Part shown: piece by piece, positions 38,836 to 44,809 of the stretch
Position numbering within the stretch: the stretch's first letter is position 1
Layout: the number at the start of each line of letters is the position of its first letter
Assembly (NCBI GenBank): GCA_023150935.1
Contig: JAKLJW010000015.1
Location: 1-64,000 of the forward strand
DNA from: Candidatus Binatia bacterium
GTDB lineage: Bacteria > Desulfobacterota > Binatia > HRBIN30
DNA length: 64,000 nt
Direction: 5' to 3'
The notes under the pieces: model-generated
Database searches by the model: none
Seen by the model: the letters and a program-made list of their open reading frames with translations, nothing else
Told to the model about the DNA's origin: nothing
Made by a program: the position numbers and the translations under genes

Positions 38836-39503
38836 CCCGTTTCCTCTCCGAAAAATCAGCACCGTCCGGCCGGTTCGACCCGGGATAGGGGCAACGCGAC
38901 GGACCGCTGTTCATCCGGCTCAGCTAGCGTTACCGGACGTGTTTTGGAAGGACGAAGTTCCCGCGGGGTCGTCCCACCGGCGGGAGCAGTGCCCGCTTGG
39001 TGTGGACCTCGACGATAATCGCGATGACGGCGGCCGGCCGACCAGTGCGCCGGCTACTCGCCAGCCTCCTCCGCGGCCTCACCGGCCTTCTTCTTCGCCG
39101 CGCCGCCGGCGCTCGATGCCAACCCGGACCGATCCGCCGGGGTTGCTGTCGCGACTGGGTACAGTTCCCCCACAAGTTCGTGTGCAGTTCCACGGGCTGG
39201 CACTGCCCCCCTTAATCCCCCCGCAAGCGGGGGGAGGCCTTCAGGCTGCGCTCTGGCGGCGCTCCCTCCCGCTTGCACCTGGTACAAACGGGGCACAGGG
39301 GTGAGATGGCCGGGCCGCCGCGCCGAGAGGGAGTCCGCAGCCACAAGGCCAGGAAACCCGACAGGCGCTGAGGCTGCTGGCCGCCCGTCGCCGCGGGAAA
39401 TCGCCAGCGTCGCACTGACCCCGGTCGACCCTGTTTTCCCTCTGCCGTGCTTCCGGGTTGCTTCAGGGCACTTTCTGTCACGTCCCGACCTGCCGCGCCG
39501 AAA
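38836..39503. other. Intergenic region, no gene seen
   Basis: No protein is supported. A perfect hairpin CCCCCCGC-AA-GCGGGGGG lies at 39217-39234, possibly a REP-like sequence or terminator. Open frames on both strands are GC-biased shadows. Confidence 0.4.
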
Positions 39504-39583
39504 ACGCAGAAAGCCACGATTTGTCGGGGCTTTCCTTTAAGCTGGCGAGCGGATTCGAACCGCCGACCTGCTGCTTGCGAATC
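39504..39583. repeat. Left duplicate of tRNA-Thr 3' end plus terminator (attL-like)
   Basis: This stretch matches 40856-40935 at 72 of 80 positions. It covers the terminator hairpin and the 3' half of the tRNA-Thr gene up to the anticodon stem. This is the pattern left by a tyrosine integrase acting at a tRNA gene. It lies 1352 bp from the intact gene. Confidence 0.75.
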
Positions 39584-39594
39584 TCGCATGGGCC

Positions 39595-39930
39595 ATGTGG
39601 ACACCGTGTGATAGAGTGCGCTCCTTCGCGATGAGGGTACTTGTGGGCCGCCCGCGAGGTGGCGAAGACGATGCTGGCGCGCGGCTGTCGGAAATCCTGA
39701 CGCTCATGTGGGAGCACGTCGACTTCGAGGGGCGTGGTCTGAACCTGCCCGACTCGAAGAGCGGGGCGAAGACCATCCACCTGAACGCCCCGGCTCTCCA
39801 GATTCTCGCCGGCCTGCCGCGCGAGTCCGAGTGGGTACTGCCGGGCCGGTACGGGAAGAAGCCGTACGTGAACGTGAAGGACCCGTGGCAACGGTTACGC
39901 ACGGCCGCCGAGCTGCTCAGCTCCGCGTAA
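39595..39930 (+). pseudogene. Tyrosine recombinase (phage integrase) fragment
   Basis: The frame reads ARLSEILTLMWEHVDFEGRG, then LNLPDSKSGAKTIHLN and LPRESEWVLPG: the box I arginine and the beta-sheet lysine region of the integrase catalytic domain. It stops before the HxxR and the catalytic tyrosine, and the N-terminal domains are missing. It is a relic beside the left att-like repeat, as expected for an integrated island. Confidence 0.7.
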
Positions 39931-40044
39931 GCCCTCCCCCGTCGTCGGCAGCAGGCAGCGGGAGCGGGCCTGTTCTCCGGAGACCGATTGCGGCCGGCGG
40001 GGCCGCCGTGATAGGTTCCGAAATGTACGTTTGGGAGGGTTTCC

Positions 40045-40317
40045 ATGGCGGCACCGAACGATGAGACGATGACCACTGTGGAGGCCCGGGAACACTTCTC
40101 GGACCTCATCAACCGCGCCGCCTACGGGAAGGCGCGCGTGGTCCTCACGCGCCGCGGAAAGCCCCTGGTGGCGGTCGTGCCGGTGGAGGACGTGAACCTA
40201 CTCAACGCGCTCCTTCGGGAACTGGAGGACCGCCTCGACGTGGCGGCCGCACACGAGGCCCTAGAGGAACCCGGTACCGAACCATGGGAGGCCGTGAAGG
40301 CCCGCCTTGGCCTCTGA
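40045..40317 (+). CDS. Phd/YefM-family antitoxin
   Basis: The 90-residue protein has MTTVEAREHFSDLINRA, then RVVLTRRGKPLVAVVPVEDV, the Phd fold that folds on DNA and toxin. An acidic helical C-terminus follows. It overlaps the next gene by 11 bases. This TA pair sits inside the tRNA-flanked relic and could explain why the remnant persists, as addiction modules resist deletion. Confidence 0.85.
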   Translation: MAAPNDETMTTVEAREHFSDLINRAAYGKARVVLTRRGKPLVAVVPVEDVNLLNALLRELEDRLDVAAAHEALEEPGTEPWEAVKARLGL

Positions 40318-40600
40318 GCGCCGCCCGGTCCTCGGGCCACGGGTTTATCGTATCGAACTGAAGCCGGCCGCCGCCCGTGATTTGGCCGCCCTCGCCACGC
40401 GGGACCGTGTCCGCGTGAGCAAGCGGATTGACGCCCTGGCCGCAAACCCTCGGCCGCCCGGGGTGGAGAAGCTGAAGGGGGCGGAGAACCTCTGGCGGGT
40501 GCGCGTGGGGGACTATCGTATCGTCTACACGATTCAGGACAATGCTCTCCTGGTCCTCGTGGTTCGCGTGAGACACCGCCGCGATGCGTACCGGCAGTAG
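40307..40600 (+). CDS. RelE/ParE-family toxin
   Basis: The 97-residue protein reads YRIELKPAAARDLAALATRD, then LKGAENLWRVRVGDYRIVYT, typical of RelE mRNA interferases with the basic core strand. The start is a TTG within the end of the antitoxin gene, so the pair is translationally coupled with the antitoxin first. Confidence 0.9.
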   Translation: MASERRPVLGPRVYRIELKPAAARDLAALATRDRVRVSKRIDALAANPRPPGVEKLKGAENLWRVRVGDYRIVYTIQDNALLVLVVRVRHRRDAYRQ

Positions 40601-40855
40601 ACCCGGCCGCGCATGGACGAACCGGCCTGGTGATGACTGACAGGGGTCGAACAGGCCGCGGCTCCCCCGCGGCGCCCGCCGCCGGCCGCTCCGGCCGCTG
40701 CGCGACCTGAGCGACGCCGAGCTGATGGCCCGGCTCCGGCGCCTGCTTCTGGAAGAAGGCTCCGGCGTGCGCCGCTGACCCCACCCCGACCCGGCCGATT
40801 TCCGTTGCCGTGCCTCCAGGCGCCCGAATGGCCGTTGGCGACGCCTGCGCCAGAG

Positions 40856-40935
40856 ACGCAGAAAGCCCCGATTTCTCAGGGCTTTCTCTTAAGCTGGCGA
40901 GCGGATTCGAACCGCTGACCTGCTGATTACGAATC
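40856..40935. repeat. Right tRNA-Thr 3' end plus terminator (attR-like)
   Basis: This is the intact partner of the repeat at 39504-39583. GAAAGCCC and GGGCTTTC (40861-40886) form the terminator hairpin of the tRNA gene on the minus strand. Confidence 0.75.
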
Positions 40936-40964
40936 AGCTGCTCTACCGACTGAGCTACGCCAGC
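40892..40964 (-). tRNA. trnT-CGU: tRNA-Thr (anticodon CGT)
   Basis: The minus strand folds as a full cloverleaf. The acceptor stem GCTGGCG pairs with CGCCAGC and the D-arm is GCTC-AGTCGGTA-GAGC. The anticodon arm is GCTGA-TTCGTAA-TCAGC with anticodon CGT, and the T-arm is AGCGG-TTCGAAT-CCGCT. CCA is not encoded. A terminator follows, and the 3' half is duplicated at 39504-39583. Confidence 0.95.
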
Positions 40965-41806: not shown

Positions 41807-42442
41807 ATGAAGAAGCTCATCGAAGGCGCCCTGCATTTTCAGAAAGCGATCTATCCGCGGTACCGCGACCTCTACCACGAACTTGCCCACGGTCAGTCGC
41901 CGCCTTGCCTGTTCATCACGTGCAGCGACTCGCGGATCGTGCCCGACCTGCTGGTTCAGACCGAGCCGGGCGAACTGTTCGTGTGCCGCAACGCGGGTAA
42001 CATCGTGCCGGCCCACGGCGAGCCCGCGGGCGGCGTTTCGGCAACGATCGAGTTCGCCGTCCTGGCACTCAACGTCAAGCACATCATCGTTTGCGGCCAC
42101 TCCGACTGCGGCGCGATGAAGGCGGTGCTGCACCCGGAGACGGTGGCGGCAATGCCGGCCGTGGCCCACTGGATCGCGTTTGCGGAACGCGCGCGTGCCG
42201 TGGCCCTGGCGACGGCCGGCGGTGCCGGCGAGGCGGAGCTGATCGACCGGGTAATCGAGGAGAATGTCGTCGCGCAACTCGACAACCTGCGCACCCATCC
42301 CTGCGTCGCCGGCAGGCTGAGAACCGGCGCCCTCGAATTGCACGGCTGGATCTACGACATCCGGACCGGCGGTTTCAGGGGATGGGATGGCGCCCGGCTG
42401 AGGTGGCGTCCGATCGAGGAACTCGCCGCCGCCTCCAACTGA
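41807..42442 (+). CDS. cynT: Beta-carbonic anhydrase
   Basis: The 211-residue zinc enzyme converts CO2 and water to bicarbonate and a proton. Zinc ligands C39 (in CSDSR), H98 and C101 (GHSDCGAM) are present, as are D41 and R43, so it looks catalytically intact. AAGGAG precedes the ATG. It is followed 39 bp later by a SulP transporter gene with a carbonic-anhydrase-like domain, suggesting a bicarbonate supply operon. Confidence 0.95.
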   Translation: MKKLIEGALHFQKAIYPRYRDLYHELAHGQSPPCLFITCSDSRIVPDLLVQTEPGELFVCRNAGNIVPAHGEPAGGVSATIEFAVLALNVKHIIVCGHSDCGAMKAVLHPETVAAMPAVAHWIAFAERARAVALATAGGAGEAELIDRVIEENVVAQLDNLRTHPCVAGRLRTGALELHGWIYDIRTGGFRGWDGARLRWRPIEELAAASN

Positions 42443-42481: not shown

Positions 42482-44809
42482 ATGGCCTCCGCATCGACCC
42501 GCACCGCGCCGAGCGTCGGCACGCTCGGCGCCGACCTATCGGCCGGTATCGTCGTCTTCCTGGTGGCGGTACCCCTTTGTCTCGGCATCGCTCTGGCCTC
42601 CAACGCCCCGTTGTTCTCGGGCCTGGTCGCCGGAATCATCGGCGGACTACTCATTGGCCCGCTGAGCGGCTCCCACACCAGCGTCAGCGGCCCCGCCGCG
42701 GGACTGGCGGCCGTGGTCGCCGCACAGATCGCTACCCTGGGCTCTTTCGAAGCTTTTCTCTGCGCCGTCGTGGTTGCCGGCGTGTTTCAAATCCTGCTCG
42801 GGGTCGCCCGCGCCGGCTCCATCGCCGACTTCGTTCCCACCGGCGTCATCCGCGGTCTGCTCGCCGCTATCGGCGTAATCATCATCCTCAAGCAGGTGCC
42901 GCACCTGTTCGGGTACGACGCCGACCCCGTCGGCGAGATGTCCTTTCGCCAACCCGATCGGGAAACCACCTTCAGCGAACTGGCGAATCTCTTTCTGGGC
43001 TCGCGCCTCCACACCGGCGCGACCCTGATCGGCTTACTCTCGATCGGCATCATGCTGCTCTGGGAGCGCGTTCGTCCGTTGAGGAATTCGCTCGTACCCG
43101 GCCCCCTGGCGGCGGTTCTCCTGGCGGTCGGCGTGAGCGCCCTCTTTGCCGGCCTCGGGGGTGGATGGGCGATCGGAGCCGATCGCCTGGTCCAGGTTCC
43201 GGTTGCGGATAGCATGGCGGGTTTCGCCGGCTTCTTGAAACTTCCGGACTTCGCCGCGTTTGCCGATCCGGCGGTGTACGTCGCGGCGATCACGCTGGCC
43301 CTCGTGGCCTCCCTCGAGACCCTGCTGTGTCTCGAGGCGGTCGATAAGCTCGATCCGCAGAAACGCACCTCGCCTCCGAACCGCGAGCTGATTGCCCAGG
43401 GAATCGGCAACGTGACCGCCGGCCTGATCGGCGGGCTGCCGATGACCTCGGTGATCGTGCGCAGTTCCGCGAACGTGAATGCAGGCGCCAGGACGAAGCT
43501 GTCGGCGATTTTTCACGGCGCACTCATACTCCTCTGTGTCGCCTTCGTGCCGGCATGGCTCAACCTCATTCCGCTTTCCGCTCTGGCCGCGGTCCTGATC
43601 ATCACCGGGTACAAGCTGGCAAGCCCGAAGGTGTTCGGACAGATGTGGCAAGCCGGCTTCGATCAGTTCATGCCGTTCATCGTCACCGTGACGGCCATTC
43701 TGTTCACCGATCTGCTGATCGGCTCCCTGATCGGCCTGGGGTTCAGCTTCGTCTTCATCCTGCGCAGCAACCTGCGCCGCCCCCTGCGGCGCCGGGTCGA
43801 GAAGCACGTCTTTGGCGACGTCTTGCGGATCGAGCTCGCCAACCAGGTCAGCTTCCTTAACCGCGTGGCGCTGCGCAACGCCCTTGCCGAAACGGCCCCC
43901 GGCGGGCACGTCCTCATCGACGCACGCGGGACCGACTACATCGACGCCGACGTCGTATCGGTCATACGCGAGTTCGAGCAGGAAACCGCACCCGCGCGCG
44001 GCATCGAAGTGAGTCTCCTCGGCTTCAAGCCGCACTACGAGCAGGTCGAGGACCGGGTGCAGTACGTCGACTTCGTCACTCGCGACCTGCGGGAGAGCCT
44101 CACGCCGGACCACGTCGTGCAGTTCCTGCGCGACGGTAACGAACGCTTCCGCCGGGGCGAGATGCTCTCCCGCAACCTGGAGCATCTGCGTCAGGGCACC
44201 GCGAACGGAAGGCACCCCCTTGCCGTCGTCCTGAGCGGTTCGAGTTCGCGCACACCGGTCGAGATGATTTTCGACGTCGGCCCCGGGGACATCTTCTGCG
44301 TCCGCACCACGGGCAACGTGGCGGCTCCGACCACTCTCGGCAGCCTGGAATACGCCTGCCGGATCGCCGGCGCCAAGGCGATCGTGGTCCTCGGCCATAG
44401 CGACAACAAAGCGGTGCGCATGGCGGTGGAGGACTTCGTGCGAGGGAGCGGAACCGCCAGCGCCGACGACTGCGTGCACCTCGATCCGATCCTTCTCGAC
44501 ATTCAACAGTCGGTGGACCCGGCGTGGAGCGCGGATTGGACGAAGGTGTCGGCTGCAATTCAGCAGGCTCGCATCGACGAGGTATCGCGCCGGCACGCGC
44601 GGCGCACGATAAGGCGGCTCCTCGAACTCAGCCCCTGCCTCGGACGTTTACACCGTGAGGGGAGGATCAAGGCGGTGGGTGGCATCTACGACCTGTCCTC
44701 GGGCGCGGTGGAGTTCATCGACCCCGGCGAGAACCACGACAGCCGTGCCGTTGCGAGCCTGGAGCGCCGGTCGTCCGAAGCCGCGGCGGGCGGTTTTCCG
44801 GGGAACTGA
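42482..44809 (+). CDS. SulP-family transporter fused to degenerate carbonic anhydrase domain
   Basis: This 775-residue inner-membrane protein has an N-terminal SulP domain (about 15-420, many membrane helices; SGPAAGLAAVV, LETLLCLEAVDKL). A STAS-like region follows (about 430-530, GHVLIDARGTDYID). A C-terminal beta-carbonic-anhydrase fold (about 540-760) has GDIFCVRTTGNVAAPTTLGS. In that domain the metal motifs are changed: CSDSR is GSSSR at 586-590, and the second cysteine of HSDCG is N642. Bicarbonate transport is the known role of SulP-CA fusions; here the domain cannot bind zinc normally. It may be regulatory. Part of an operon with cynT. Confidence 0.9.
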   Translation: MASASTRTAPSVGTLGADLSAGIVVFLVAVPLCLGIALASNAPLFSGLVAGIIGGLLIGPLSGSHTSVSGPAAGLAAVVAAQIATLGSFEAFLCAVVVAGVFQILLGVARAGSIADFVPTGVIRGLLAAIGVIIILKQVPHLFGYDADPVGEMSFRQPDRETTFSELANLFLGSRLHTGATLIGLLSIGIMLLWERVRPLRNSLVPGPLAAVLLAVGVSALFAGLGGGWAIGADRLVQVPVADSMAGFAGFLKLPDFAAFADPAVYVAAITLALVASLETLLCLEAVDKLDPQKRTSPPNRELIAQGIGNVTAGLIGGLPMTSVIVRSSANVNAGARTKLSAIFHGALILLCVAFVPAWLNLIPLSALAAVLIITGYKLASPKVFGQMWQAGFDQFMPFIVTVTAILFTDLLIGSLIGLGFSFVFILRSNLRRPLRRRVEKHVFGDVLRIELANQVSFLNRVALRNALAETAPGGHVLIDARGTDYIDADVVSVIREFEQETAPARGIEVSLLGFKPHYEQVEDRVQYVDFVTRDLRESLTPDHVVQFLRDGNERFRRGEMLSRNLEHLRQGTANGRHPLAVVLSGSSSRTPVEMIFDVGPGDIFCVRTTGNVAAPTTLGSLEYACRIAGAKAIVVLGHSDNKAVRMAVEDFVRGSGTASADDCVHLDPILLDIQQSVDPAWSADWTKVSAAIQQARIDEVSRRHARRTIRRLLELSPCLGRLHREGRIKAVGGIYDLSSGAVEFIDPGENHDSRAVASLERRSSEAAAGGFPGN

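Follow-up and report, generated by a model that had tools for sequence, protein, structure and literature searches.

Background

According to a review that also cites work on Streptococcus ICEs, IMEs and CIMEs, elements that have lost their integration and transfer genes but still carry attL and attR are known as CIMEs (cis-mobilizable elements); they are frequently arranged in tandem with others, one example lies at the 3' end of a tRNA-Lys gene, and tandem accretion is described there for integrative elements as well as for CIMEs (PMC5704250). In Shewanella, HipAB, a toxin–antitoxin (TA) pair on the tRNA-Trp island CGI48, has been reported to help maintain that island (PMC8978831), and a TA pair has likewise been reported to maintain the SXT element (PMC2654960).

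Here we describe a locus at a tRNA-Thr(CGT) gene in a 64-kb stretch of DNA, referred to below as the window. The locus is a decayed tRNA-integrated element of a known kind, CIME-like by its kept ends and its lost integrase. As in a CIME, the att ends are retained, functional integration and transfer genes are absent, and the element probably lies in tandem. What sets it apart is its size, since the remnant is just 1.35 kb with a TA pair as its sole intact genes; no sign of a conjugative ancestor was seen, its relatives looking like integrase–primase/AAA elements. A TA pair on an integrated element is also the trait shared with CGI48 and SXT; those are large and mobile, however, whereas the element in the window is almost the TA pair alone and is known from its sequence.

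A displaced 3' half of tRNA-Thr(CGT)

The only tRNA called by ARAGORN in the window is tRNA-Thr(CGT), and its 3' part is found a second time at a distance of 1352 nt. The repeat (39495-39583 and 40847-40935) is identical at 78 of 89 positions; in 15 shuffles of the region the top ungapped match to the 89-mer was 41 of 89. Over 39504-39583 only, 72 of 80 positions are identical, exactly as claimed in the sequence-only reading of this DNA. The following features are involved:

39504-39541, minus strand: displaced and weakened copy of the terminator (RNA fold -13.8 kcal/mol)
39540-39583, minus strand: displaced tRNA-Thr 3' half, from the anticodon loop to the 3' end, an attL-like junction (47-nt match to the tRNA, 93.6%, E=1.5e-15)
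40892-40964, minus strand: intact tRNA-Thr(CGT), the integration target (ARAGORN)

The displaced copy thus spans the terminator plus all of the tRNA from its anticodon loop onward, and its terminator folds less stably than the one behind the live tRNA (-20.6 kcal/mol). It cannot be a tRNA because the 5' half is absent; with a loop reading TTCGCAA it is the broken copy with a CGC anticodon that had been described. At least ten displaced 3' halves of tRNA-Thr or tRNA-Lys elsewhere in the class begin in the same anticodon loop, and the sequences preceding the displaced tRNA-Thr 3' halves in relatives are unrelated. Two further loops, the variant TTCGCAAGC of G085 and the similar TTCGAAAGC of G117, were rejected as chance matches outside tRNA sequence.

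Tyrosine integrases that target tRNA genes bring in an element that completes the tRNA with a 3' half and a terminator of its own, and the older 3' end is displaced to the far side. The layout of the locus fits such an integration into the 3' half of the tRNA: a direct repeat of the tRNA 3' part flanks the element, the tRNA is restored, as is typical of tRNA elements of tyrosine recombinases, and the 3' half of the live tRNA-Thr(CGT) presumably came from the element.

A probable older element on the left flank

The homology on the left does not end at the displaced copy, and one more feature lies outside the island as it was first delimited:

39328-39494, plus strand: probable remains of an older element, from its right, tRNA-proximal end (homology to the end of the C5 element)

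Over 253 nt, the stretch 39328-39576 shares 79% identity (E=1.3e-52) with the terminal part of an element beside tRNA-Lys(CTT) in the host genome (G000:C5 29763-30012). The match takes in the last codons of a cargo ORF of the C5 element, and the homologous stretch there lies on the element side of the intact tRNA-Lys(CTT). Because the flank matches the element side, the left copy is most likely the right end of an older tRNA-Thr element, and at the level of sequence the locus is probably a tandem accretion of two elements. The earlier view of the left copy as a broken duplicate needs amendment in that it is a displaced tRNA 3' half with an outer flank that is itself an element end. A search of the window to the left of 39504 gave no third tRNA 3' end, and the far end of the older tRNA-Thr element was not found either.

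Ends and integrase relic of the younger element

Both ends of the younger element, and part of what is left of its integrase gene, could be recognised by comparison with a 6.2-kb relative elsewhere in the host genome (the C2 element, L026 3957-10134), which has the same two ends:

39579-39651, plus strand: left end of the younger element (78% identity with the C2 left end, L026 3962-4034, across 73 nt, E=2.9e-10)
39649-39930, plus strand: integrase relic, consisting of a scrap of the arm domain (39649-39683) and, joined to it, a piece of the catalytic core (39673-39918)
40754-40891, plus strand: right end of the younger element (match to the C2 right end), with one GTGCCTCCA repeat (40810) and the terminator that now serves the tRNA

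Located directly inside the displaced 3' half, the relic is all that remains of the integrase gene at one end of the element. Its arm-domain scrap is 91% identical over 35 nt to the N-terminal part of the C2 integrase. The match to Pfam PF00589 is weak (E=2.2e-4, under the curated cut-off), but the relic clearly resembles residues 251-336 of a full-length, 428-aa integrase from genome G012 (about 55-56% amino acid identity over 86 residues, E=7.7e-22), so that the integrase fragment noticed earlier in the 1.35-kb stretch is well founded. Judged from the family, the relic cannot be an active recombinase because the region with the His-x-x-Arg, Gly-His and Tyr of the intact protein is missing. 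At the other side, 40754-40926 and the C2 right end (L026 9934-10124) share about 80% identity. Attachment-like ends of both kinds (attL and attR) are therefore kept, and the 1.35 kb between them holds no functional integration or transfer gene.

The C2 element itself is found not at a tRNA but at a lipoprotein gene, inserted into its 3' end between 11-nt repeats AAGGAGAATCT. Joining its flanks gives a gene ending in LQKENL, which the insertion turns into LQKENLAGAM. Its integrase is truncated, and its right end still bears a tRNA-Thr 3' half with terminator. The GTGCCTCCA repeat occurs there in four copies at the left end, spaced by 11 nt, and in two copies at the right end; these repeats are candidate arm sites for the integrase. 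HicB- and MazF-like ORFs, judged by eye, are also present on the C2 element. The second related element of the host genome is the one at tRNA-Lys(CTT) on C5, of which the far end was not found; downstream of this tRNA-Lys (L027 1-8050, G000:C5) a PIN-like ORF and DNA-methylase-like ORFs were seen.

The phd–relE operon

The sole intact gene pair of the decayed element is a TA operon, preceded by a possible operator:

40021-40032, plus strand: operator-like palindrome AAATGTACGTTT, 12 nt before phd and containing the single AAATGTACRTTT of the 64 kb
40045-40317, plus strand: intact antitoxin gene of the Phd/YefM type, 90 aa (PF02604, E=1e-10; TIGR01552, E=1.5e-11)
40307-40600, plus strand: intact toxin gene of the ParE/RelE superfamily, 97 aa, TTG start (PF05016, E=1.3e-15; PDB 2khe 'toxin-like protein', E=2.5e-11)

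Both ORFs are complete, in agreement with the intact Phd/RelE pair reported before, and overlap by 11 nt. With a Phd/YefM antitoxin directly upstream of a ParE/RelE toxin, the operon would be classed, by family and gene order, as a type II TA module of the Phd/YefM–RelE/ParE kind; PADLOC assigned the pair to no defence family. The core of the YefM operator is TGTACA, and TGTACA palindromes similar to AAATGTACGTTT are also present just upstream of phd in the homologues L069 and L086.

Two RelE paralogues elsewhere in the host genome are broken by stops, whereas the copy in the window is intact. Between the window genes and their homologues in G015, the differences fall mainly at third codon positions (29/22/63 and 19/15/52 by codon position). 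As read from these alignments, this bias shows long-term constraint on the phd–relE family with its ancestors included, the share of the window copy not being separable from theirs. The pair in G015 (L069, G015:C127) is the closest homologue of the window operon, with about 57% identity for each protein, and lies upstream of an adjoining, distant integrase.

Larger relatives and single-ended loci

A larger relative of the island, as the sequence-only reading had suggested should be sought, was found in G012 (G012:C5, L037 2349-9969). This apparently complete element of 7.5 kb is flanked by a perfect 52-nt repeat of a tRNA 3' end and has the same integrase family as the window element. As in the window, phd and relE lie behind the integrase (here 428 aa) on one strand; genes for AAA_25, Prim-Pol and Resolvase come next, and nothing recognisable as a conjugation gene was seen in the element. 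The two elements have tRNA 3'-end att sites in common, the one in G012 being at tRNA-Arg(ACG) and not at tRNA-Thr. Their TA proteins are only about 41-46% identical, so that an exchange of the TA module is possible. In G095 and in G078, a full-length integrase of this family lies just inside a displaced tRNA-Thr 3' end, another one beside a displaced tRNA-Thr end in G037 is cut by the contig end, and in G010 one adjoins a displaced tRNA-Lys end.

At nine of the 11 intact tRNA-Thr(CGT) loci examined in relatives (up to about 10 kb per side, less at contig ends) a second 3' end is absent; it is present in G008 and G023. The duplicated end is thus not general among the relatives, and in the window it is accompanied by integrase homology, which, together with the att-like ends and the larger relative with the order int–phd–relE, sustains the reading as a relic island at tRNA-Thr. 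The interval in G008 (G008:C14, L028 3915-10415) measures 6.5 kb and has a perfect 46-nt repeat at tRNA-Thr(CGT), with no integrase recognised.

Short tRNA-bounded remnants

The 148 genomes of the class were searched for 3' halves of tRNA-Thr(CGT) and tRNA-Lys(CTT), and intervals of less than 2 kb between two copies were collected. Five such intervals are known in the class, the window included, and in four of them a single, apparently complete TA pair is present, no two being of the same kind:

Window, 1.35 kb: Phd–RelE
G023, 1.09 kb: MazE–Doc
G093, 1.7 kb: Phd–VapC
G125, 1.0 kb: HicBA
G098, 1.6 kb: IS110 transposase, no TA pair
G353, outside the class, two intervals of 1.1 and 2.0 kb: no TA pair

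If the chance of a TA pair per remnant is assumed, roughly, to be 10-20%, the probability of at least four in five is 0.0005-0.007; with all seven short intervals counted it becomes 0.003-0.03 under the same rough assumption. A search with the tRNA-Lys pattern at the level of the phylum gave no further short intervals, and no report of tRNA-bounded remnants with only a TA pair was found in the open-licence literature.

The MazE–Doc end of the G023 interval recurs, with 95.8% identity over 896 nt, in G093, a genome of the same genus. There it forms the end of a 20-kb interval that also has large ATPase, methylase and helicase-like genes. Since the right ends differ, the comparison is compatible with shrinkage in G023 as well as with growth in G093. 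The locus in G093 (G093:C214 22362-44323, L149/L150) is a tandem at tRNA-Thr, with the 1.7-kb Phd–VapC unit followed by the 20-kb interval, which has MazE–Doc at one end and whose ATPase, methylase and helicase-like genes resemble a defence island.

That addiction modules choose which parts of an island survive has often been proposed, but has seldom been seen as a series. Taken alone, the locus in the window is an ordinary decayed element. Within the class, however, two tRNA genes show a gradation from apparently complete elements through a 20-kb island to 1-kb TA remnants with four kinds of TA pair, which makes TA-biased erosion testable by survey and experiment.

Proposed history of the locus and alternative explanations

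We propose that an element of 6-8 kb or more with a tyrosine integrase integrated into the 3' half of tRNA-Thr(CGT), where its own 3' half and terminator would have restored the tRNA and the older 3' end would have come to lie 1.35 kb away. The landing site would have adjoined the end of an element that had entered this tRNA before. Successive deletions may then have spared little besides the phd–relE operon, about 100 codons of the integrase gene and the two att ends. Loss of an active TA pair would expose the cell to the toxin (post-segregational killing), and deletions sparing phd–relE would therefore be tolerated. Integration, tandem accretion and erosion down to att ends, an integrase scrap and the TA operon very probably describe the history of the locus. 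This history leans on the repeat, the junctions, the integrase relic, the intact TA reading frames and the larger relatives, as read directly from the sequences; the order of events, like the working of the TA pair, is what we infer.

Whether addiction biased the deletions is, judging from the recurrence of TA pairs in the relatives, about an even call. The sequence-only reading had the island kept alive by its TA pair; with a TA pair in four of the five class remnants and two RelE paralogues interrupted by stops, such TA-biased erosion is plausible, albeit not demonstrated. The remnant might instead be neutral, the product of random deletions with the TA pair as the part not yet lost and no effect of addiction, an explanation that we regard as possible though somewhat doubtful. 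The sample of remnants is small, the IS110-only remnant and the two TA-less intervals of G353 do exist, and the host genome is rich in Phd (35 antitoxin matches in 5.3 Mb, or about 1% per 1.35 kb for Phd alone). Such neutrality is harder to reconcile with the low probability, at the assumed rate, of four different TA pairs in five class remnants, with the intact state of RelE in the window against its two interrupted paralogues, and with the third-position differences from the G015 homologue.

It is improbable that the unit is a non-autonomous cassette of att ends and a TA pair, moved by an integrase in trans, instead of a shrunken island. In G023, in the 1.7-kb unit of G093 and in G125 only a TA pair lies between tRNA 3' ends and no integrase was seen, and G023 and G093 have the TA end in common with different right ends, as a cassette might; but the unit in the window is marked by its integrase relic, with internal deletions, as a derivative of an autonomous element, and an identical cassette at two sites was not found. 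A local duplication of the tRNA, followed by decay and with unrelated genes in between, would explain why the copy takes in the terminator as well as tRNA sequence. It is nevertheless highly improbable, as the copy stops in the anticodon loop like the displaced copies in relatives, integrase homology starts just inside it, both ends match the ends of other elements, and no 5' tRNA half is present beside the left copy. Beyond the history of integration and erosion preferred here for this locus, one might speculate, with considerable reserve, that tRNA genes of the class gather minimal units of att ends and a single TA pair, either with TA-protected erosion as a general end point or as units moved in trans in the manner of integron cassettes.

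Genes flanking the locus

An empty site in related genomes had been called for as well, and a strict one was not found: the genes flanking the locus in the window (carbonic anhydrase, SulP, MsrA and KatG) are not located beside tRNA-Thr in genomes of the same family. In a scan of GTDB contigs with the SulP fusion, the nearest relative had 72-73% identity, and no tRNA-Thr was present in the loci examined. The SulP fusion (42482-44809) is a SulP-type transporter fused to a beta-carbonic-anhydrase-like domain in which the zinc-site motifs are altered (LSGSSSRTP and GHSDNKAV). It adjoins a gene for a separate carbonic anhydrase (41807-42442) with intact motifs.
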